Positions 22,618-36,176 of a DNA stretch of 36,451 nucleotides are shown in pieces. The notes under the pieces are model-generated. The model saw only the letters and a list, made by a program, of their open reading frames with translations. It made no database searches and was not told where the DNA came from. The stretch is from contig JAAYPF010000072.1 of NCBI GenBank assembly GCA_012519925.1, positions 1-36,451 of the forward strand, given 5' to 3'. The DNA is from Clostridiaceae bacterium. GTDB taxonomy: Bacteria > Bacillota > Clostridia > Acetivibrionales > Acetivibrionaceae. The position numbers and the translations under genes were made by a program. Each line of letters opens with the position of its first letter. The stretch's first letter is position 1.

Positions 22618-22944
22618 ATGGTAGGAAAATATAAGGTAATAACTTTGTGTCGGAGCACAAGGTTTAAAGACGAGTTCTTGCAAGTACAAAAACAATTAAC
22701 TCTAGAAGGTAATATAGTTATTTCAGTAGAATTGCTCGGACATGCTGATGGTGAGTTTGGAGAAGTCATCACTTCTGAAATTAAACTAATGCTTGACGAT
22801 ATACATAAAAGAAAAATCGATATGTCTGATAAAATTTATGTCATTAACAAAAACGGATACATAGGAGAAAGTACAAAAAGTGAAATAGGATATGCTATAA
22901 AAACGGGAAAAGGGGTTAATTATTTAGAGTACCATAATGCCTAG
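22618..22944 (+). CDS. Nucleoside 2-deoxyribosyltransferase-like protein
   Basis: The 108-residue protein begins KVITLCRSTRFKDEF and contains KIDMSDKIYVINKNGYIGEST and KSEIGYAIKTGK. This layout (CGSTRF-type loop, D-x-x-x-V-N segment, then EIGYA with E89 as likely nucleophile position) is that of the small nucleoside 2-deoxyribosyltransferase/DUF4406-like superfamily. The usual glycine of the CGSTRF loop is Arg12 here, which may affect ligand binding. GGAGGGG precedes ATG 22618. It follows the broken methyltransferase by 114 nt. A role in nucleotide or phosphoribosyl metabolism is an inference from fold only. Confidence 0.65.
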   Translation: MVGKYKVITLCRSTRFKDEFLQVQKQLTLEGNIVISVELLGHADGEFGEVITSEIKLMLDDIHKRKIDMSDKIYVINKNGYIGESTKSEIGYAIKTGKGVNYLEYHNA

Positions 22945-26470: not shown

Positions 26471-28591
26471 ATGAAATCTATTTGTTTTGGTGTAAAAAGG
26501 GTTAATAAAAACTTAAAAGGTATTATTACTCTTTTTGCATTGCTTATGACCGTATTTGTATTTAGTAAAAGTGGTGTTGAAGCAAAAATTATTAATAACG
26601 AATTTGTTGATTTAACATTCACCGTTGATTCAAAAGATTATTTATCAAAAAGTATTAAAAAGAAAATGGACTTAGCTCCATTTATTGAAAATGGCTCCAC
26701 ATTAGTTCCTTTCAGAACTATATTTGAAGAGTTGGGATATACTATTAAATGGGATGATAGTGAAAGATCTATCTTTGCATATAAGATGGGAAGTCAAATG
26801 AAGCTTATTATTGATAACAATATCGCAATGATAAATGGGCAAGAAAAAATTATTGGTGTCGCACCTAAAATTGTAAACGGTAGAACTTTTGTACCGTTAA
26901 GATTTGTTTCAGAAAATGCAGGAGCTAATGTAGTCTGGGATGATTCAACGAGAGCGATTTACATAACAAAAGTAGGTAAATATGATACTGGTGGAGTCTT
27001 ATTCTACGAAAAAGGTAAAAAAGGTAATAATACTGTTTACATCTATGATGGCAATGAATTTAAAGTATTGCCATTAAACAACAAGTCTATAGTGAATTGG
27101 TACTCATACAAAGGTAAGGTTCTACTTACAATGTTTGATTCATCTACAAGCAAAAATAACTTTGCACAGTTTAAAAATGGTACATTTGAAGTATTGATTA
27201 ATGATTTTGATATTCAGGAAACATTTGAATATAATAATAATTTACTAATTCATGGATACGATAGAGAGCAAAAATTCAATAAATTATACAGATTTGATGG
27301 ACACTCGTTAATACTTATTAAAGATAATTTTTATGTTGGGAAACACATGGAGATTAATGGCAAATTAGTAATTAATAAATATGATAACACAAGAGACTAT
27401 TCTTTGTTAGTATTTGATAAGAATTCTTCAAACCCTTGGGAACCTAAAGTACTATCAGAAAACTTTATTATTAAGGATTCGGTTATATTTGATAATGTTT
27501 TATATATGACAGGTGTATTAGAGGAAGGAAAATCAAAACCTTTGGCATCTTACAATGGATTAGGTACTGGACCACTTTATTTTAAGATATTGCATGATGA
27601 CATAGATATTAATATAAATGATATTGCTATTTATAAAGATAAAATCTATCTTGTGAAATCTGGAAAACTTAAGTATATATATAATAAAAAATTGCATGAT
27701 GAGCTTGTTACGTATAAAAACAAACAAACTTTTATCGATTATTCTATAAATAAAATAGTAGCATTTAATAATAAACTATACATAGGAGTTAAAGGCGGAA
27801 AATATGTTGATTCAAAAGGTGTTGCGTTGAATGCGAAGGATTATCCTAAAATAAATCCTTTTGTTATGGAGTTTGAAAGCCCGACTGTTACTTCAAATTT
27901 TATTAGCGGTTTTTCCCTTAAAGAATTCAGAATTGAAGGAAATGTGCTTCTTGCACTAGGAAATCTCACTAGTAAGGATTCTGCATTATATATATATAAT
28001 GGTATAAATAAGCCTGTAAGTACATTAGACGTTTTGAGTATAAAAAATACACTGACTGTTAATAACAAATTATTTATTGATGTTACTGATAGAAGCAGAA
28101 TAACTGATAAAAATAGAGATACCATGTTGGTATATGAAGGAAACACTATTAAGAATCTTGTTGTTGATATGAAAACAAAGTATTGGGAAGCTGTTAAGGA
28201 TAGCATGGTGTTTTCGGGTTATGAGAATGGAATTAATGCTAATAAATTGTACTCGTATGGATATGCGTTTAATGAATTGCTAGGTAATTTTGATGTGAAA
28301 TATTGGAGTAAAGTAGAAAATTCACTTTTTGTATGCGGTAGTTCTCCTTTAGATAAGCAATTTGGGCTTTACAAATTTAATGATGCTAATATGTTAAGTT
28401 TAGAGCAAAACATGGAAGCTATAAATGTAATAAAAGCTAAAGGAAAGTATTATCTTGTGTATGCTTATGACAGAGATGCACAGTCACCATTAAAAGGCAA
28501 AAAGATACTTTATATTTATGATGATTCAACAAGAGATTTTGTGGAAATGAAAGTAAATATAGAAATAACTGATATGATTTTTATGGAATAA
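26471..28591 (+). CDS. Secreted protein with copper-amine-oxidase-N-like repeats
   Basis: The 706-residue protein has a signal peptide (~20-38), then two tandem Cu_amine_oxidN1-type repeats (about 60-175) with the hallmarks LVPFRTIFEELGYTIKWDD and FVPLRFVSENAGANVVWDD; in clostridia this domain is a common wall or surface module and does not imply amine oxidase activity. The rest (~180-706) is unassigned; it holds recurring short motifs such as IYDGNEFKVLP, YRFDGHSLILI and YIYNGINK that suggest a kelch-like propeller. AAAGGGGG precedes ATG 26471. There are no dockerin or SLH modules. Function unknown. Confidence 0.7.
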   Translation: MKSICFGVKRVNKNLKGIITLFALLMTVFVFSKSGVEAKIINNEFVDLTFTVDSKDYLSKSIKKKMDLAPFIENGSTLVPFRTIFEELGYTIKWDDSERSIFAYKMGSQMKLIIDNNIAMINGQEKIIGVAPKIVNGRTFVPLRFVSENAGANVVWDDSTRAIYITKVGKYDTGGVLFYEKGKKGNNTVYIYDGNEFKVLPLNNKSIVNWYSYKGKVLLTMFDSSTSKNNFAQFKNGTFEVLINDFDIQETFEYNNNLLIHGYDREQKFNKLYRFDGHSLILIKDNFYVGKHMEINGKLVINKYDNTRDYSLLVFDKNSSNPWEPKVLSENFIIKDSVIFDNVLYMTGVLEEGKSKPLASYNGLGTGPLYFKILHDDIDININDIAIYKDKIYLVKSGKLKYIYNKKLHDELVTYKNKQTFIDYSINKIVAFNNKLYIGVKGGKYVDSKGVALNAKDYPKINPFVMEFESPTVTSNFISGFSLKEFRIEGNVLLALGNLTSKDSALYIYNGINKPVSTLDVLSIKNTLTVNNKLFIDVTDRSRITDKNRDTMLVYEGNTIKNLVVDMKTKYWEAVKDSMVFSGYENGINANKLYSYGYAFNELLGNFDVKYWSKVENSLFVCGSSPLDKQFGLYKFNDANMLSLEQNMEAINVIKAKGKYYLVYAYDRDAQSPLKGKKILYIYDDSTRDFVEMKVNIEITDMIFME

Positions 28592-28622
28592 TATGAATAG
28601 TTATAGACAATTATCATGAACG

Positions 28623-28665
28623 ACAAAGCTCTAGAAGTTTATTCAATATACTTTTAGAGCTTTGT
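28623..28665. repeat. 15-bp hairpin after the 706-residue gene
   Basis: ACAAAGCTCTAGAAG pairs with CTTTTAGAGCTTTGT (one G-T pair, 13-nt loop). No T-run follows on the plus strand. Confidence 0.7.
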
Positions 28666-28748
28666 TATGAAAAAATTAAACTTTTATCGTTTTATACGAA
28701 ATAAAATAAAAATAAGTTCGAATATACTATATAGGAAAGTGTTTGTAG

Positions 28749-28803
28749 TAAATTATAATTCCGGTGAGCATTCTATAGCCACTTTTCAGAGAATTATAAT
28801 TTA
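28749..28803. repeat. Perfect 13-bp inverted repeat
   Basis: TAAATTATAATTC (28749-28761) and GAATTATAATTTA (28791-28803) are exact complements separated by 29 nt. Confidence 0.7.
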
Positions 28804-28827
28804 TCTTACGCTTCCTTTTTCCCTTAT

Positions 28828-28875
28828 AACCGCTTTCTTTCATTTGCGAAATGTTTAGAAAGGGGTTCTTTTTTT
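28828..28875 (+). terminator. Rho-independent terminator upstream of sigI
   Basis: AACCGCTTTCT (28828-28838) pairs with AGAAAGGGGTT (28857-28867); the loop holds a second stem CATTT/AAATG. CTTTTTTT follows. It lies ~240 nt after the nearest upstream gene. Confidence 0.8.
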
Positions 28876-28981
28876 ATATTTACATATTCGCATGAACAAT
28901 ATAGTTGGAAAATAAGCGGTTTCAATATATAATAGAAATATAAGACTTTTCACAGATAAATATAGAAGGGTTTTTGAAATT

Positions 28982-29009
28982 CCCGTCAAAAAAACATTTT
29001 GCAAACGAA
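28982..29009 (+). promoter_or_regulatory. Putative SigI-type promoter of sigI-rsgI
   Basis: CCC at 28982-28984, an A-tract at 28988-28994 and CGAA at 29006-29009 match the published pattern for clostridial sigma-I promoters (A-tract at -35, CGWA at -10). With the first four A as reference, 14 nt separate the A-tract from CGAA, the same as in the candidate before the GH30 gene. It would give autoregulation of sigI. Confidence 0.5.
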
Positions 29010-29093
29010 TTTTAAAATTAGCCTTGAGTATCTTTGAGATGACTATGATGCTAGTTTTTATGTTTATGGGGGGAAGAACTGGAAGATGAAGAG

Positions 29094-29840
29094 GTGGAAC
29101 ATTTGTTATTTGTTTTTTCTATCTATAGCTCGGAGTCTAAGGAGGATTTAGCCAATATCATCGATAGAATCAAAGCAGGAGACGAACAACTCAGGGAAAA
29201 ATTTATTGTAGATTATATACCGTTTATAATTAGAGTACTTTCCAATGCAGTAAAGACTAAAATTGATTTAAAGAATAGTGATGAATATAGTATTGGTTTA
29301 ATTGCGTTTAATGAAGCAATTGAAAAATATGACAACAGCAAAAATAATAAAGGATTTAACTTTTTTTCCTTTGCTGAGCTAGTAATAAAAAGAAGGATGA
29401 TTGATTATTTTAGGGTTAGTTCAAGAAATAAGGAAATGCCCTTTTCATATTTCGAATCGGATGATGAACAATTTGAGGATAAATATCTTCATGATGAGTC
29501 ATGGACAGGATATAATAGGATTGAGGTGTTTCAGGAAATAACGCATTATTCTAAGATGCTTGAAAGGTTTGACATCAAAATAAGTGATTTACATAAATAT
29601 ACGCCTAAACATAGTGATTCTATTAGGATGTGTGTGGACATTGGACGCAAAATTGCTGAAAATAGGGAAGTTTTTAATAAACTTATTAAAAAGAAATATT
29701 TCCCTATGAAGGACATTATGAAGTTTGTAAACGTGCATCCTAGTACAATAGAAAAAAACAGGAAGTTTATTATTTCGGTAAGCATTATTTATGGAAACAA
29801 CTATGAGTATCTGAAAACATACTTTAATAGTGGCAGGTGA
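29094..29840 (+). CDS. sigI: RNA polymerase sigma-I factor (SigI family)
   Basis: The 248-residue protein has a sigma-70 region 2 (about 35-110; EYSIGLIAFNEAIEKYD, FNFFSFAELVIKRRMIDYFR) and the SigI-specific C-terminal domain with FVNVHPSTIEKNRKFIISVSIIY. In cellulosome producers, SigI factors switch on scaffoldin and hydrolase genes when their RsgI partner senses polysaccharide. GTG 29094 is chosen because GGAAG lies 8 nt upstream and no in-frame ATG exists before it; a CTG at 29079 is possible. The 3' end overlaps or abuts rsgI, the usual operon. The closest A. thermocellus type is likely SigI3, judged from its partner's PA14 domains. Confidence 0.88.
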   Translation: MEHLLFVFSIYSSESKEDLANIIDRIKAGDEQLREKFIVDYIPFIIRVLSNAVKTKIDLKNSDEYSIGLIAFNEAIEKYDNSKNNKGFNFFSFAELVIKRRMIDYFRVSSRNKEMPFSYFESDDEQFEDKYLHDESWTGYNRIEVFQEITHYSKMLERFDIKISDLHKYTPKHSDSIRMCVDIGRKIAENREVFNKLIKKKYFPMKDIMKFVNVHPSTIEKNRKFIISVSIIYGNNYEYLKTYFNSGR

Positions 29841-29847
29841 AGTTATT

Positions 29848-31863
29848 GTGGAAATGTATAAAGGTTTGATATTTAGTATGGATAAAAAGTCAGCAGTGGT
29901 GGCTACTCCTCAGAATGCAATATATAAGATTAATCGCAACAAAACGATGTATATAGGTAAGGAAATAGTGTTTTCAGACAAAGATATTATTGATTACAGG
30001 TATTATCTGAAAAGATATTCTGTTGCGGCAGCTTGCTTATTCTTAGTTTTAAGTGTTGCTTTTAGTATCAAATTAAATTTTAATAAGAGCTTTTTAGGTA
30101 TGAAGGAATTTGCTTATATAAGTATGGACATTAACCCTAGTGTGGAATTTACTATTGATAAGACACAAAGGGTTCTTAAGGTTGAGCCTTTGAACAGTGA
30201 TGCAGAGGAAATCATTGCCCACGAAAAGTTCAAGGGTTTGGCACTTGAAGATGCCATAGTTAAAGTATATGCAATATGTGAAGATAGGGGTATTGTTGAT
30301 GCTGAAAGTAAAGTGTCTTTATTGATTTCTGGCTCTGCAAATCCTGACAATGACGATTATAAGAAAGATAATTCAGTTGCAGACGATATTATAGATGATA
30401 TTTTACAGGACTTAAAGGAGAATATTTTAAAAACGAGTGATAAGGAGCCTGAAATCGTTGTTTTTCGAATTATACCGGAAGCTAGAGCTAAGGCTTTTGA
30501 AAATGATATATCCCCTTCTAAATATGCACTCTATTCCGAAATCAAAAGGCAAGGGGAAGAAATATCCATTAATGAAATGAAGAAATCTTCAGTGGAGGAG
30601 CTATTAAGTATTTATAATGATATAAATAAAGATATAGAATCATCCACTAAACCAGTGTTTATTACACCTGAACCTACTGATGCTGGCGATAATATTTCTC
30701 CAAGCCCGACCGTAACGCCAACACCTGTAGAAATAGAAACACCAACGCCATCAGTTGCACAGACACCAACGCCATTAGTTACACCTACAGTGCATTTACC
30801 GGTATTTACTCAGAATACTTCCACAAATACACCGATTCCGACGGTTTTGGCTACACCGTCACCTACGCCTACACCTACACCTACACCTATATCTACGCCT
30901 AGACCTACATATACACCTACGCCTACGCCTACACCTATACCTACGGACAAGCCTATGCCTACAAAAATAAGTTTTGGGACTGGTTTGAGAGGAGAATATT
31001 TTGATAATATAGATCTTACTAATTTCAAATTAACCCGTGTGGACAAAACAATTGATTTCTTTTGGGGAATAAAATCACCGGCAGATGAAATTAGAGACGA
31101 TGAAACATATAGCGTACGCTGGACTGGAAAAATAAGGCCTTTCCATAGTGAAGAGTATACTTTCCATATAGTTCGAGATAATGGGGTTAGACTTTGGATT
31201 GATAATAAGCTGATAATAAACAAATGGGACAATGAAACGAGCTTTGACGATACAGGCAAAATTGTTCTTGAGGCTGGAAAATATTATGATATTAAGCTTG
31301 AGTATTTTAACAATATAGGTAATGGAATTGTCAAACTTGAATGGAGTAGTAAGAGCACAGAAAAGTCTGTTGTTCCTTCTGTATGTCTATATCCTTCAGA
31401 GGCGAAAAGCTATGAAAGTAATTTGCCTGGAAATGGTTTTGGCTTGGCCTATGAGTATTTCGAAGAGGATAATTTGACAAACTTCAAAGAAAAGGGAATA
31501 GACAGTGTTATTGACTTTAACTGGGGTGTGGGTTCACCGAGCAAATCAATTAGTAAGGATCAGACTTACAGTATTCGTTGGAGAGGCTATATACAGGCAC
31601 CTTATGATGAAGACTATGTGTTCTATGTTACTTATGATGATGGTGCTAGTCTATGGATTGGCAGACAGCTTTTGGTGGATAAATGGAATGTTAGTGAGAT
31701 AAATACGGTTAAGACTAAAGCTATACCCTTAAAAGCTGGGGAGAAGGTTGAATTATTACTTCTGTACCATAACAATGGTTTGGCAGGTCAGATTAAGCTT
31801 GAATGGGAGAGCCCTAGCATTAAAAGATCCGTTGTTCCAAAGAATTGCTTATATCCATGGTGA
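29848..31863 (+). CDS. rsgI: Anti-sigma-I factor RsgI with tandem PA14 sensor domains
   Basis: This is the membrane partner of SigI. The 671-residue protein has an N-terminal RsgI_N anti-sigma domain (1-~50), one transmembrane helix (~58-75), a membrane-proximal domain with YISMDINPSVEFTID (N96-P97 is the cleavage position known for SEAL-type domains), an acidic stalk, a Thr/Pro linker (~272-371) and two PA14 domains (~378-525, ~531-670; GEYFDN..., TYSVRWTGKI, DNGVRLWID; YEYFEEDN..., TYSIRWRGYI, DDGASLWI). A PA14 pair is the layout of RsgI3 of A. thermocellus, implicated in polysaccharide sensing. GTG 29848 is 7 nt after AGGTGA; a GTG at 29830 overlapping sigI is the alternative. Confidence 0.9.
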   Translation: MEMYKGLIFSMDKKSAVVATPQNAIYKINRNKTMYIGKEIVFSDKDIIDYRYYLKRYSVAAACLFLVLSVAFSIKLNFNKSFLGMKEFAYISMDINPSVEFTIDKTQRVLKVEPLNSDAEEIIAHEKFKGLALEDAIVKVYAICEDRGIVDAESKVSLLISGSANPDNDDYKKDNSVADDIIDDILQDLKENILKTSDKEPEIVVFRIIPEARAKAFENDISPSKYALYSEIKRQGEEISINEMKKSSVEELLSIYNDINKDIESSTKPVFITPEPTDAGDNISPSPTVTPTPVEIETPTPSVAQTPTPLVTPTVHLPVFTQNTSTNTPIPTVLATPSPTPTPTPTPISTPRPTYTPTPTPTPIPTDKPMPTKISFGTGLRGEYFDNIDLTNFKLTRVDKTIDFFWGIKSPADEIRDDETYSVRWTGKIRPFHSEEYTFHIVRDNGVRLWIDNKLIINKWDNETSFDDTGKIVLEAGKYYDIKLEYFNNIGNGIVKLEWSSKSTEKSVVPSVCLYPSEAKSYESNLPGNGFGLAYEYFEEDNLTNFKEKGIDSVIDFNWGVGSPSKSISKDQTYSIRWRGYIQAPYDEDYVFYVTYDDGASLWIGRQLLVDKWNVSEINTVKTKAIPLKAGEKVELLLLYHNNGLAGQIKLEWESPSIKRSVVPKNCLYPW

Positions 31864-31876
31864 TTGTTGAATAAGA

Positions 31877-31903
31877 CCCCTAAAATCGAGCGATTTTTTC
31901 GAA
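31877..31903 (+). promoter_or_regulatory. Putative SigI-type promoter of the GH30 gene
   Basis: CCCC (31877-31880), A-tract (31882-31885) and CGAA (31900-31903) with 14 nt between A-tract and CGAA, as before sigI. The same bases contain AAAATCG/CGATTTT, a small palindrome followed by TT, which could instead be a weak rsgI terminator. Confidence 0.45.
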
Positions 31904-32030: not shown

Positions 32031-34067
32031 ATGGTGATGAAGAAAAAGCTGGCGTTATCGGTTGTGATGTCAATAATATTGAGTTTCATGATTTTTCCCA
32101 AAACCGACGCAGCAAGTTATACAGCTTCAGTGGACATTAACACTACATATCAGACACTTGAAGGGTTTGGTGCAGCAATAGCATGGTATAATGACTATTT
32201 GACAACGCATCCAAACAAAAATGACCTTTATAAAATATTGTTCTATGATTCTGGATTGGACATATTAAGGCTCAGAAATCAGTATAGGAACAGCAACAAT
32301 TTTGCTTATGACGACAAAGAGATTGTTGCATATGGTAAGATAATGAATCCAGATCTTAAGGTTCTACTTTGCTCATGGTCACCACCGGAGGATTTAAAGA
32401 AGGATGGTGTTATGAACGGAGGAACTCTTGCTAAAGAAAACGGATCTTTTGTATATGATAAGTTTGCTGATTATTGGTATAATTCCTTAGTTGCATACAA
32501 AGAAAAAGGCATAGTACCAGATTACATAAGCATTCAAAATGAAGTAGAATACGAGAATGCAGATTGGGAAACCTGTATATTCAGAGAAACTGAAACTTCA
32601 GATTATCCAGGTTATGGAAAGGCGCTTGATATCGTTTACAATAAAATAAAAGATTTGCCTGACATGCCTAAAATATTAGGAGTTGAATCAGCAGGTATAA
32701 TGAATAATACCGTTCAAAATTATGCAAAATATATGGATCTTTCACAGGTATACGGTATAGCTCACCATCTTTATAATGGAGGAGATGCCAATAATCCTGA
32801 CAGCTTTAATAGCAATTTTGAAAGTTTGGCTAGAGATTTCGCCGATAAACCGCTTTTCATGACTGAGTATGATTATGGTACACCTTTTACAACAGCAGAA
32901 TTGATACACAACTCTCTTGTAGTAGAAGGCGTTAGTGGATATTTTTACTGGGATCTTATTTGGGAAAACCAACAAAGACCTTTAGTATTTATTGAAAAGC
33001 CAAGAAATCCGAATGAATGGACTACAGAAGAGGGATATATAATTTCTGATTTTTATCCTATTATTCAGCAATATGCTAAATTCACAGATCCAGGATATAA
33101 GAGAGTAAAAGTTTCTTTAAATGCAAGTGATGTAAAGGCATCTGCCTTCGTGTCACCGGATCAAAGCAAGTTGACTATGATTTTGATAAACAAAGCATCA
33201 TCAGAAAATACAGTTGCCCTAGATTTAAATGGTTATTCATCAAATAAATCAGTGGTATATCGTACTCTATCAAATGGAACAGAAGGATTTAAAAAGGTAG
33301 GAAGCCTTTCGGGGAATACAGTTACTCTTCCTGCTCAATCCGTTGTTACAGTAGCATTTGGAGTTTCAGATGAGGCTACAACACCACCGCCACTTCCGAC
33401 ACCAACACCAAAGCCAGAGTCAAGAAGTGCTTTTGAATTGATACAAGCAGAAGAATACAACAGTATGTATGGTGTGCAGTGTGAAGTGATTTCTGATGAT
33501 GGCAACCAGACTGTTGGTTATATAGAAGGTGGAGATCATATATTCTTTAAAGGTGTAGATTTTGGCACTGGTGCAACTGGTTTTGAGGCGAGAGTATCGA
33601 GTGCTGAAAGTGGAGGAAAAATTGAAATTCGTCTTGATGAGATGTATGGACCTACTGTGGCAACCATTCCGGTTAGCGGAACAGGAGATTGGCATGAATA
33701 TGTGGATGTCAAGGCTAGTATAGAAGGTATTGAAGGTAAACATGATCTATATCTGTTCTTTAGTGGTGGCGGGGGATATCTGTTTAATATAGACTGTTTT
33801 GTGTTTACTGGAGGTTCTGTTGTAGAGCCTACTCCGACACCTATTCCTGAAGTGGAAATTGGTGACATTAGTGGAGATGGAACCTTTGACTCTATAGATT
33901 TTGGATACATGAGACAGTATATGCTTGGAATGATAAGCAAGTTTCCTTCAGAGAACGGTATGTTTGCAGCGGATGTGGATGGAAGCGGAGAGGTGGACTC
34001 TTTAGATTTTGGATTTATGAGGAAGCACCTACTTGGAATGATTGATAAGTTTCCAGCAGAAAAATAA
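32031..34067 (+). CDS. Secreted GH30-CBM6-dockerin, likely xylan-active
   Basis: The 678-residue protein has a signal peptide (1-~27), a GH30 TIM barrel with side beta-domain (~32-445), a Pro-rich linker, a CBM6 (~468-595; FELIQAEEYNSMYG, VGYIEGGDHIFF) and a type I dockerin. The likely acid/base is E171 (SIQNEVEYE) and the nucleophile E279 (FMTEYDYG). GH30 cellulosomal enzymes mostly act on (glucurono)xylan; the unusual nucleophile and barrel motifs suggest a less common subfamily (possibly GH30_10, which includes xylobiohydrolases), not the standard glucuronoxylanase. Dockerin loops DISGDGTFDSID and DVDGSGEVDSLD carry Ser-Ile and Ser-Leu. ATG 32031 follows GGAGGGG; ATG 32037 is the alternative. 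It may be a direct SigI target. Confidence 0.87.
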   Translation: MVMKKKLALSVVMSIILSFMIFPKTDAASYTASVDINTTYQTLEGFGAAIAWYNDYLTTHPNKNDLYKILFYDSGLDILRLRNQYRNSNNFAYDDKEIVAYGKIMNPDLKVLLCSWSPPEDLKKDGVMNGGTLAKENGSFVYDKFADYWYNSLVAYKEKGIVPDYISIQNEVEYENADWETCIFRETETSDYPGYGKALDIVYNKIKDLPDMPKILGVESAGIMNNTVQNYAKYMDLSQVYGIAHHLYNGGDANNPDSFNSNFESLARDFADKPLFMTEYDYGTPFTTAELIHNSLVVEGVSGYFYWDLIWENQQRPLVFIEKPRNPNEWTTEEGYIISDFYPIIQQYAKFTDPGYKRVKVSLNASDVKASAFVSPDQSKLTMILINKASSENTVALDLNGYSSNKSVVYRTLSNGTEGFKKVGSLSGNTVTLPAQSVVTVAFGVSDEATTPPPLPTPTPKPESRSAFELIQAEEYNSMYGVQCEVISDDGNQTVGYIEGGDHIFFKGVDFGTGATGFEARVSSAESGGKIEIRLDEMYGPTVATIPVSGTGDWHEYVDVKASIEGIEGKHDLYLFFSGGGGYLFNIDCFVFTGGSVVEPTPTPIPEVEIGDISGDGTFDSIDFGYMRQYMLGMISKFPSENGMFAADVDGSGEVDSLDFGFMRKHLLGMIDKFPAEK

Positions 34068-34180
34068 TACCTACGATTCTCTTGAATTGAGTGAAAGATT
34101 GGAAAACCTAGGCTTTGAGGCTCATAGTTCTTATTTACAATAGATAAAATAGATGTTATAATTAAATAAAATGTATATTG

Positions 34181-34331: not shown

Positions 34332-36176
34332 ATGAAAGCAAAAAAAGGATTATCCGTATTACTTACAGTGCTGTTTGGATTTACAAGTTTATTTTCAAAT
34401 ATTGTATTTGCAGATACGCTACCAAGCATTAAGATTGAACTGGACAAGACTTCTGCAGCAGTAGGTGAGGTAATAAAGGCATCAATTGTTGTAGATAGCA
34501 TTAATGCTTTTGCAGGATACCAGGTAAATCTAAAGTATGACCCAACAGTATTAGAAGCTGTCAATCTAGATACAGGTGCTGTTTTTACTAATTCTACAAA
34601 TCCTAAAGAGGGAACAATATTAAAAGATTCTACATATGGTGCTTTACCAATTGCTTCCAACAACATATCCCAGGGAATTTTAAATTTTGGTAGGACTTAT
34701 ACAAATCTTGTAAGCTATAAGGCTGATGGTTCGCCAGAAACATCAGGTACAGTTGCGATAATTGGATTTAAGGTTCGAAAGGTTGAAGAGACAAAGATTG
34801 AGTTCGCACAGACAAATACTATGCCAACAGCTGTCTCCGGTGTCATGTTGTTTGATTGGGATGGAAATAAGATGACTAAAGGTTATTCAATAATAAATCC
34901 TCCATCCATTAACCAAACTTCAAGTGAAAGCACTCCTACTCCTATAGTAGTAACAGGTCCATTGGATCCTCCTACTCCTACACCTGTAAAGACCGGTAAA
35001 AAGGGAGAAATTAGCTCTAGTGTTGTAAGCAATCAGAGTGGAAAAGTGACTTATAAGTTTGAAAAGGAAGAATTAGAGATTGCATTAGAAGAAATAATTC
35101 CAGATTCAAGCGGAGTTAAAACTGCTGTTTTACCTGTAAGCGGGGTTGAGGGAGCTACAGAATATACACAGGAGTTTCCAAATCAGGCATTGCTTTCTAA
35201 TATCTTATCCTATAGGATAAATATGAGTACTGCATATGCAGTTTTAAATCTTCCTTCAAATATGCTAAATACAGCTGAATTATCCTCAAGAGTAAAGAGT
35301 GCTTCAAAGGTTGCTGTTACTGTAGCAAAAGATGAATACTCTGATTTGTCCTCGGATATAAAAAATAAAATAGTTGATAGACCAATGATAAAATTAAGTC
35401 TCAAAATTAACGATGTGAATACTGAGTGGAACAACCTGGAAAGTCCTGTGAAGGTATCTATCCCTTATGTGCCAACAGAAGCTGAAAAGAACTCATTAGA
35501 GCATATAGTTGTCTTAAGGATTGACAACACAGGAAAAGCTATAACGGTACCAAGTGGTAAATATGATGAAAAAACAAAAATGGTTACGTTTTCAACTACA
35601 AGTCTTGGGAGATATGCAGTTGCATATGTTAATAGAACCTTTAACGACTTAAAATCCCATACATGGGCAAAGCATCAGATTCAAGTTTTAGCATCAAAGG
35701 GTATAATAAACGGTACTTCCGAAACTACATTCACTCCTCAAGCGTTTATAACAAGAGCAGATTTTATGGTATTATTGGTTAAAGCTTTGGATTTGAATGC
35801 TGTTGTTGATTCCAACTTTGCAGATGTACCATCGGATGCCTATTATTATAATCCAATAGGTATAGCGAAAAAGCTTGGAATTACTACAGGAGTCGGTGAT
35901 AACTTATATAATCCAAAAGCTCAAATTACAAGGCAGGATATGATGGTTCTTATAACAAGAGCTCTCATGGTGTCGGGTAAAATATCCTCCGAGGGTACTG
36001 CTGATGTTATTGCAAGTTATACAGATAAAGACCAGATTGCATCATATGCTGTGACAGGTGTTGCTACTTTGGTTAAAGAGGGAATAGTTGTAGGAAGCAA
36101 TAACATAATTAATCCTAAGGGAAATGCTTCAAGAGCGGAATTAGCAGCTATCGTCTACAAGATTTACAATAAATAA
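34332..36176 (+). CDS. Cell-surface anchor: type II-like cohesin plus three SLH repeats
   Basis: The 614-residue protein has a signal peptide (1-~28), one cohesin (~32-190; IKIELDKTSAAVGEVIKASIVVDS, GYQVNLKYDPTVLEAV), a short Thr/Pro linker, a middle region (~225-430) seen in other SLH proteins, and three S-layer homology repeats (~434-490, ~495-555, ~562-614) with ITRADFMVLL, ITRQDMMVLI and ASRAELAAIV. Size and order resemble SdbA of A. thermocellus, which binds the type II dockerin of a scaffoldin. It would tether cellulosomes to the cell wall. AAAAGGGGG precedes ATG 34332. The GH30 terminator shows that it is transcribed separately. Type II assignment is from general similarity and needs a profile search. 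Confidence 0.88.
   Translation: MKAKKGLSVLLTVLFGFTSLFSNIVFADTLPSIKIELDKTSAAVGEVIKASIVVDSINAFAGYQVNLKYDPTVLEAVNLDTGAVFTNSTNPKEGTILKDSTYGALPIASNNISQGILNFGRTYTNLVSYKADGSPETSGTVAIIGFKVRKVEETKIEFAQTNTMPTAVSGVMLFDWDGNKMTKGYSIINPPSINQTSSESTPTPIVVTGPLDPPTPTPVKTGKKGEISSSVVSNQSGKVTYKFEKEELEIALEEIIPDSSGVKTAVLPVSGVEGATEYTQEFPNQALLSNILSYRINMSTAYAVLNLPSNMLNTAELSSRVKSASKVAVTVAKDEYSDLSSDIKNKIVDRPMIKLSLKINDVNTEWNNLESPVKVSIPYVPTEAEKNSLEHIVVLRIDNTGKAITVPSGKYDEKTKMVTFSTTSLGRYAVAYVNRTFNDLKSHTWAKHQIQVLASKGIINGTSETTFTPQAFITRADFMVLLVKALDLNAVVDSNFADVPSDAYYYNPIGIAKKLGITTGVGDNLYNPKAQITRQDMMVLITRALMVSGKISSEGTADVIASYTDKDQIASYAVTGVATLVKEGIVVGSNNIINPKGNASRAELAAIVYKIYNK

Follow-up and report, generated by a model that had tools for sequence, protein, structure and literature searches.

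The closest described counterparts of the promoters analyzed here are the sigma-I promoters of Clostridium thermocellum. PMC4711584 and PMC6056542 describe them as an A-tract and a CGAA element separated by 13-14 nucleotides (nt) and preceded by a variable upstream region, and locate them before sigI genes and dockerin genes. PMC6056542 defines the A-tract, the CGAA element and the specificity region, along with the 'universal' promoter type of cipA and cel48S, and SigI6 reads CGAC-NN-AAA sites before three xylanase genes according to PMC4711584. The stretch analyzed here (36,451 nt; hereafter, the window) is contig JAAYPF010000072.1 (C192) of the 3.91-Mb draft genome of a Clostridiaceae bacterium (GCA_012519925.1, hereafter G000; 99.98% complete). 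It encodes, in this order, a copper-amine-oxidase-domain protein, SigI, RsgI (RsgI_N, RsgI_M and two PA14 domains), a GH30-CBM6-dockerin enzyme and a cohesin-SLH protein; SigI and the membrane anti-sigma factor with its RsgI_N/RsgI_M domains and extracellular sensor form a SigI-RsgI pair. An earlier note on the window had proposed that matching sigma-I promoters before sigI and before the GH30 gene link the sensor pair to the hydrolase. Our analysis suggests that the locus contains two promoter classes, and that the GH30 gene probably belongs to the core cellulosome class rather than to a regulon of the local SigI.

Both sites are found on the plus strand in non-coding gaps upstream of their genes, and rechecking of the coordinates confirmed the C-run, the A-tract and the CGAA located 14 nt after AAAA. 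The sigI site is composed of CCC (28982-28984), the first four A (28988-28991), 14 nt and CGAA (29006-29009), and the GH30 site of CCCC (31877-31880), AAAA (31882-31885), 14 nt and CGAA (31900-31903). The C-run noticed earlier is present in both sites, but it is not aligned: counted from the first A, it occupies positions -6 to -4 at the sigI site and -5 to -2 at the GH30 site. The proposed resemblance to published sigma-I promoters was upheld. The published AAA plus 13-14 nt suits AAAA plus 14 nt with the A-tract read one base downstream. The GH30 site shows AAA-14-CGAA and continues as CGAA-TAT-AT, with the T/AT expected after CGWA. The AAAAAAA of the sigI site accommodates either spacing; its continuation CGAA-TTT-TA lacks the T/AT, as do several published sigI promoters.

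The bare AAAA-N14-CGAA core proves nothing alone, because the window holds three copies where 1.88 would be expected, and 26 of 100 shuffles contain at least three. The sites were scored with a matrix built on 41 promoters from the list of 47 in PMC4711584, many of which are predicted without mapped starts. The GH30 site has the top score in the window, 23.7 bits, which was reached in none of 1000 first-order Markov windows (their best, 22.5) and in none of 20000 simulated gaps. The sigI site is third with 16.4 bits; a slightly different matrix background gives 24.3 and 16.8 bits, respectively. The second-best score (18.4 bits; 17506-17478, minus strand) falls in a plus-strand open reading frame, has GGAA replacing CGAA, and is presumably a chance match; a plus-strand site at 22928 scores 14.1 bits. 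Before the GH43 and cohesin-SLH genes the best scores are 1.0 and -2.6 bits, in agreement with the earlier observation of no clear site there. Judged by sequence, the GH30 site is very probably, and the sigI site probably, a sigma-I promoter of known kind.

The dockerin genes of the genome served as a control. The 77 dockerin matches yielded a mechanically assigned gene start in 68 cases (three matches lie outside the stretches covered, six run off an edge, and the start on C132 is doubtful, with a stop soon after), and 67 of these have at least 120 nt upstream. Sites of at least 16 bits precede seven of the 67 genes on the sense strand and none on the antisense strand (antisense best, 14.3). 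The GH30 gene is third, after a GH9 gene (25.5) and the GH48 gene (24.9), and is followed by a gene on C191 that is cut off after its dockerin (21.1; CCGGACAT). Next come a GH5 gene, with 20.8 bits, and another two GH9 genes, with 18.4 and 17.9 bits; families were assigned by Pfam. This rank among the best sigma-I scores argues against reading the GH30 site as the terminator of rsgI. An inverted repeat, AAAATC-GAGC-GATTTT, is visible there; it has six pairs, of which five are A-T, and TT comes directly after it. Its folding energy is, however, no better than that of shuffles (z 0.12), and no terminator-like site was found at this position, which makes a terminator very improbable.

The two sites agree with each other in core and spacing, as had been stated, but not in the specificity part. 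The upstream part of the GH30 site is CCCCTA-AAA, like those of sigI2 and cel48, and that of the sigI site is CGTC-AAA, the CGAC form of which is found before sigI orthologues and before a GH11 xylanase gene. Only the GH30 site conforms to the C-run class, CCCC(C)T(A/C)-AAA-14-CGAA. The pattern CCCCTNAAA-N14-CGAA has three matches in the whole G000 genome (3.9 Mb), those of sigI2, cel48 (GH48) and GH30. G001 has three, of which one belongs to sigI2 and, by eye, the others to a cel48-like gene and a secreted gene resembling a cellulase; the one match of G002 is that of sigI2. The same pattern read backwards has 1, 1 and 2 matches in G000, G001 and G002, so single matches may be chance, and it is the genomic places that count. 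Aligned in its best frame, the eight-mer of the GH30 site shares 7 of 8 positions with cel48 and 6 of 8 with sigI2 of the genus, versus 2-4 of 8 with the orthologous sigI sites, and its class scores are 8.7 versus 0.9 bits. The sigI eight-mer shares 7 of 8 positions with G002, 2-5 with other orthologous sites and 3-4 with the C-run class.

The pattern CGWCNNAAA-N13-CGAA has six matches in the three genomes, four of them directly before sigI genes, namely the window sigI and three members of another SigI clade; the other two are elsewhere, at least one inside an open reading frame. The looser CGWCNNAAA-N12-14-CGWA has five matches in G000 (backwards control, 58), of which two precede sigI genes. 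Another, CGACAT-AAA-14-CGAATATATATA, is located some 380 nt upstream of a GH11 xylanase gene that is truncated at the end of its contig. The GH11 assignment is based on the first 75 residues (PDB match, 8e-15; Pfam, 2.9e-5 and 24.2 bits, under the cut-off of 27). Because its specificity region is shared with sigI2 and cel48, unlike the sigI site, the GH30 gene is the likelier member of the core cellulosome class, and the proposed link from this SigI to GH30 through a matching pattern was not supported.

Several points weigh against this assignment. The GH30 eight-mer shares only 4 of 8 positions with GH9, GH5 and C. thermocellum sigI2 of its own class, and, in the best frame, the window sigI site shares 5 of 8 with it. 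Class scores leave the sigI site ambiguous (1.7 bits for C-run versus 3.2 for CGWC), and the backwards control of CGWCNNAAA-N13-CGAA has 43 matches versus 6, so that this count says little on rarity. Residues 200/203/204 of the window SigI (YMK) are the same as in C. thermocellum SigI3, a reader of CCC-type sites. The class patterns were picked after seeing some of the sites, and the sigI2, GH30 and sigI matches in G000 are circular; independent support for the classes comes from GH11, from cel48 in two genomes and from the sigI2 matches of G001 and G002. Two further sites were observed. A scaffoldin (cohesin) gene is preceded, at a distance of 657 nt, by a C-run site containing CGTA, and the region upstream of a GH30 orthologue in G006 (L175) contains CGTCAATAAAACATGTTCGCGACCGAA, which by eye is nearer to the window sigI site than to the GH30 site.

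Among 60 genomes searched, 11 have an orthologue of the window SigI, with G001 and G002 being the nearest and of the same genus as G000. An upstream site of the right form is present in G000, G002, G005, G017, G031 and G040. The sigI site could be a chance match in A+T-rich DNA, with sigI driven only by the sigma-A-like promoter at 28905-28933 and perhaps by a distal site. As many as 147 of 1000 simulated windows contain a site as good; the site is degraded in G001, where the sigma-A-like promoter stays; and in the orthologue upstream regions no candidate was found in G007 and G011 and none convincing in G003 and G009. By the matrix, G005 and G017 reach only 4.1 bits, and thus do no better than G003, whose unconvincing candidate has 4.6 bits. 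The window site, however, has P = 0.00085 within the 511-nt gap in which it lies, its block GAAATTCCCG-C-A-tract-CAACGAATTTTA is largely common to G002, and analogous CGAC sites precede the orthologous sigI genes of G017, G031 and G040, which belong to another genus. A chance match thus appears improbable, if less so than the terminator considered above.

The GH30 gene is located behind rsgI in G000 and G001; no GH30 gene was found behind rsgI in G002. Five genomes of the g2 group have a similar gene in this place; for G005 and G007, the two that were tested, Pfam identifies it as GH10-CBM6-dockerin. The SigI/RsgI pair adjoins a dockerin xylanase in two genera. A sigma-I-like site precedes the rsgI-adjacent hydrolase gene in G000, G005 and G007 (9.0 bits in the latter two). 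None was found in G001, G003, G009 and G011; the gaps there measure 61-141 nt, and the hydrolase gene is likely reached by read-through. In G001 neither the sigI nor the GH30 site was found, though its SigI is 86% identical. The tie between sensor and xylanase rests, therefore, on neighborhood and not on a conserved promoter match. Joint loss of both sites in relatives was considered as evidence and set aside, since the seven genomes with a hydrolase gene behind rsgI are too few and too related. In the short rsgI-GH30 gap of G001 (L119), an inverted repeat, CTCTTCCC...GGGAGAG, was seen by eye and no promoter. A wider contig scan gave 80 loci, which were left out of the comparison; its two top Clostridium assemblies appear to be identical to the contigs of G009 and G011, and almost all of the others come from Bacillaceae.

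This neighborhood is one of the reasons to consider that the local SigI reads both sites directly, the sensor pair and GH30 forming one regulon. The core and spacing are identical in both sites, a SigI/RsgI pair with two PA14 domains is followed by a dockerin xylanase in both genera, the GH30 enzyme is closest to a solved glucuronoarabinoxylanase, the PA14 dyad of the C. clariflavum orthologue reportedly binds xylan, and several SigIs can share C-run promoters. On the other hand, the GH30 specificity region belongs to another class, the GH30 gap of G001 is without a sigma-I site, and the GH10 sites of G005 and G007 (GTACTC and GTACATC) differ from the G005 sigI site (GTGAAC). A direct link from SigI to GH30 is possible, but it is not the best reading, and we regard a single regulon as rather unlikely.

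The relationship of the window SigI to known SigI proteins was assessed in a tree of 64 proteins, built by a quick method with support from the Shimodaira-Hasegawa-like approximate likelihood ratio test (SH-aLRT) only. It includes eight of the ten SigI-like matches of G000, with two fused ones left out. The window SigI, its orthologues and the CBM42-type SigI5 form one clade (19 rows; SH-aLRT, 100), the inner order of which is unsettled, and C. thermocellum SigI3 is placed elsewhere, with SigI4 (97). The name SigI3/RsgI3, suggested by the two PA14 domains, is thereby ruled out. No G000 SigI among the eight in the tree grouped with SigI6, which has a long, unresolved branch. The CCCYYAAA plus CGTA of the SigI3 regulon was not found at either site, as both have CGAA and the sigI site has CCCGTCAAA; in PMC10575876, a change of CGTA to CGAA abolished use by SigI3. 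The contact residues, taken from the same source, are YMKHPSEKR in the window SigI, xK(T/S)NKKERR in the SigI2 clade and YMKNHKQRR in SigI3; the difference between the window SigI and the SigI2 clade favors the assignment to two classes. Some overlap of the window SigI with SigI3 in DNA reading is conceivable.

Two of the SigI-like proteins of G000, of 536 residues (L163, on C116) and 431 residues (L164, on C210), as well as those of L121 and L122 (315-553 residues), seem by eye to have their SigI part joined to an RsgI-like N-terminus and a membrane segment; the L164 match spans only the C-terminal half of SigI. In G002 (L120 5298-8300, a reversed stretch), a second sigI-rsgI pair lies immediately upstream of the orthologous pair. 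The comparison includes G008, which is identified as C. thermocellum by its published promoters, namely that of rsgI5 and five of sigI genes; of two further promoters typed for G008, the sigI8 string was not matched letter for letter and the sigI7 locus is outside the comparison. The identification of G003 and G007 as C. thermocellum or C. straminisolvens was rejected, as no published promoter was found in the loci covered and no sigI3 promoter in the two genomes.

The preferred assignment of GH30 to the core cellulosome class suggests the following model, in which the pairing of each SigI with a site, the start points, the ligand and the signaling steps are predicted: (i) the locus would encode a SigI/RsgI pair that senses xylan or hemicellulose, followed by a dockerin xylanase; (ii) the two PA14 domains of RsgI would bind the polysaccharide, upon which RsgI would be cleaved and SigI freed; (iii) the freed SigI would transcribe sigI-rsgI again from its autoregulatory CGTC-NN-AAA-13-CGAA site, above a sigma-A baseline; and (iv) GH30 would have its own C-run promoter, CCCCTA-AAA-14-CGAA-TATAT, of a class that in G000 also includes sigI2, cel48, a GH9 and a GH5 gene. 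Together with the core cellulosome, GH30 would be switched on by a cellulose-sensing factor of the SigI2 type (CBM3), or else several SigIs would act on it, as on the 'universal' promoters of cipA and cel48S. The main route from the local SigI to GH30 would be read-through from rsgI, and the stretch between the two genes yielded no terminator-like hairpin.

Features of the sigI-rsgI locus and of related sites (positions in the window unless a contig is given)
Feature	Position	Strand	Basis
Hairpin, strong, 3' of copper-amine-oxidase-domain gene	28622..28666	+	fold of 28588-28690, z -5.6
Distal sigma-I-like site, TACGAAAT-AAA-13-CGAA, then TATACT	28695..28722	+	13.3 bits; not beyond chance by score
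Predicted structured RNA: long hairpin, invariant CU-rich linker containing UUUUUCC, terminator-like hairpin and U-run	28733..28878	+	fold z -5.4
Sigma-A-like promoter, TTGGAA-17-TATAAT, between RNA element and sigI site	28905..28933	+	conserved in G001
Probable sigma-I-type promoter of sigI, CGTC class	28982..29009	+	pattern, matrix, G002 conservation
sigI, RNA polymerase sigma factor SigI	29103..29840	+	NCBIfam NF006173, 289.5 bits (cut-off 287)
rsgI, anti-sigma factor, RsgI_N, RsgI_M and two PA14 (sensor)	29848..31863	+	Pfam; PDB 6QDI, E 5e-157
Very probable sigma-I-type promoter of GH30, C-run class, ACCCCTAAAA-14-CGAA-TATAT	31876..31903	+	pattern, matrix, dockerin-gene scan
GH30-CBM6-dockerin xylanase-like enzyme	32031..34067	+	Pfam; PDB 9YWN (glucuronoarabinoxylan endoxylanase), E 5e-188
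Cohesin-SLH anchoring protein; extended sigma-A-like promoter 34134-34162	34332..36176	+	without sigma-I-like site
GH11 site	G000:C158:608-634 (L210)	-	25.0 bits

The region upstream of the sigI site contains a distal sigma-I-like site and a predicted structured RNA, which begins 9-10 nt past the CGAA of that site. The CGAATATACT of the distal site is invariant in G000, G001 and G002. The upstream half of the site varies more, and the site scores 11.4 bits in G001 and 10.4 in G002. It is among five matches of CGAMNNAAA-N13/14-CGAATW in the three genomes, a pattern picked after seeing the site; the TATACT could instead be a sigma-A -10 element, without a visible -35. The RNA element also folds in G001 (z -4.5). 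A covariance model found it once in each of the three genomes and in none of 37 others; a three-sequence model applied to 58 genomes with stricter filters recovered the same three and a weak match in G049 (E 0.004, 35 bits), which is probably due to chance. Support from covariation is modest, with 3 of 47 predicted pairs changing on both sides and 12 of 47 broken or gapped in one sequence. No Rfam match was found over 28733-28878, the only two sub-threshold matches (E 0.03) falling outside the element, at 28608-28686. The G002 copy is separated from the nearest sigI by about 8 kb, with CGAATATACT at unchanged distance before it; this placement makes a sigI leader unlikely and suggests that the RNA is probably an independent gene. 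We tentatively propose a sigma-I-driven small RNA of about 146 nt in the sensor locus, an RNA arm of the polysaccharide-sensing sigma-I regulon, as a possibility somewhat less probable than not.

Among the remaining features, the hairpin behind the copper-amine-oxidase-domain gene is without a long U-run, and its role as a terminator is unproven. The gene starts were set partly by eye. For sigI, TTG at 29103 is likelier than GTG at 29094, as AGAGGTGG precedes TTG and TTG is aligned with the SigI5-type start; rsgI starts at 29848 or 29854; and the ATG of GH30 at 32031 has GGAGGGG in front. A search of a plasmid collection gave no match.

These results imply that the sigma-I core alone is unsafe for naming a neighboring gene a target, as the specificity region must match too. 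One genome offers two testable regulon classes. The SigI phylogeny is separable from the sensor domain, with PA14 found on a SigI5-like factor, and a conserved structured RNA may belong to the sigma-I network.

Compared to the C. thermocellum sigma-I promoters of PMC4711584 and PMC6056542, the window sites are predicted only, and neither has the CGTA of SigI3 sites. The 'universal' cipA and cel48S type (CCCCTCAAA, CGAA, and AT three bases on; PMC6056542) resembles the GH30 site (CCCCTAAAA, CGAA, TATAT), which differs in having A, not C, before AAA and in preceding a GH30 xylanase gene. The SigI6 sites of C. thermocellum described in PMC4711584 are of the same CGAC type before xylanase genes as that found before GH11 in G000. 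The C. thermocellum SigI3/RsgI3 system (two PA14 domains, pectin) has the same two-PA14 RsgI sensor, the structure of which (PDB 6QE7) was matched, but the window SigI groups with SigI5 and its sites have no CGTA. The PA14 dyad of G001 is identical to PDB 6QDI over 291 residues, and the window dyad is close to it. We take PDB 6QDI to be C. clariflavum RsgI4 and G001, presumably, to be C. clariflavum. The C. clariflavum RsgI4 locus of G001 has the same gene order, including GH30, but the proximal sigI and GH30 sites were not found there. Grinberg (2019) reportedly describes xylan binding by the PA14 dyad of C. clariflavum and a SigI4 promoter before xylanase genes; if so, the regulon idea has in part been published for the sister species.

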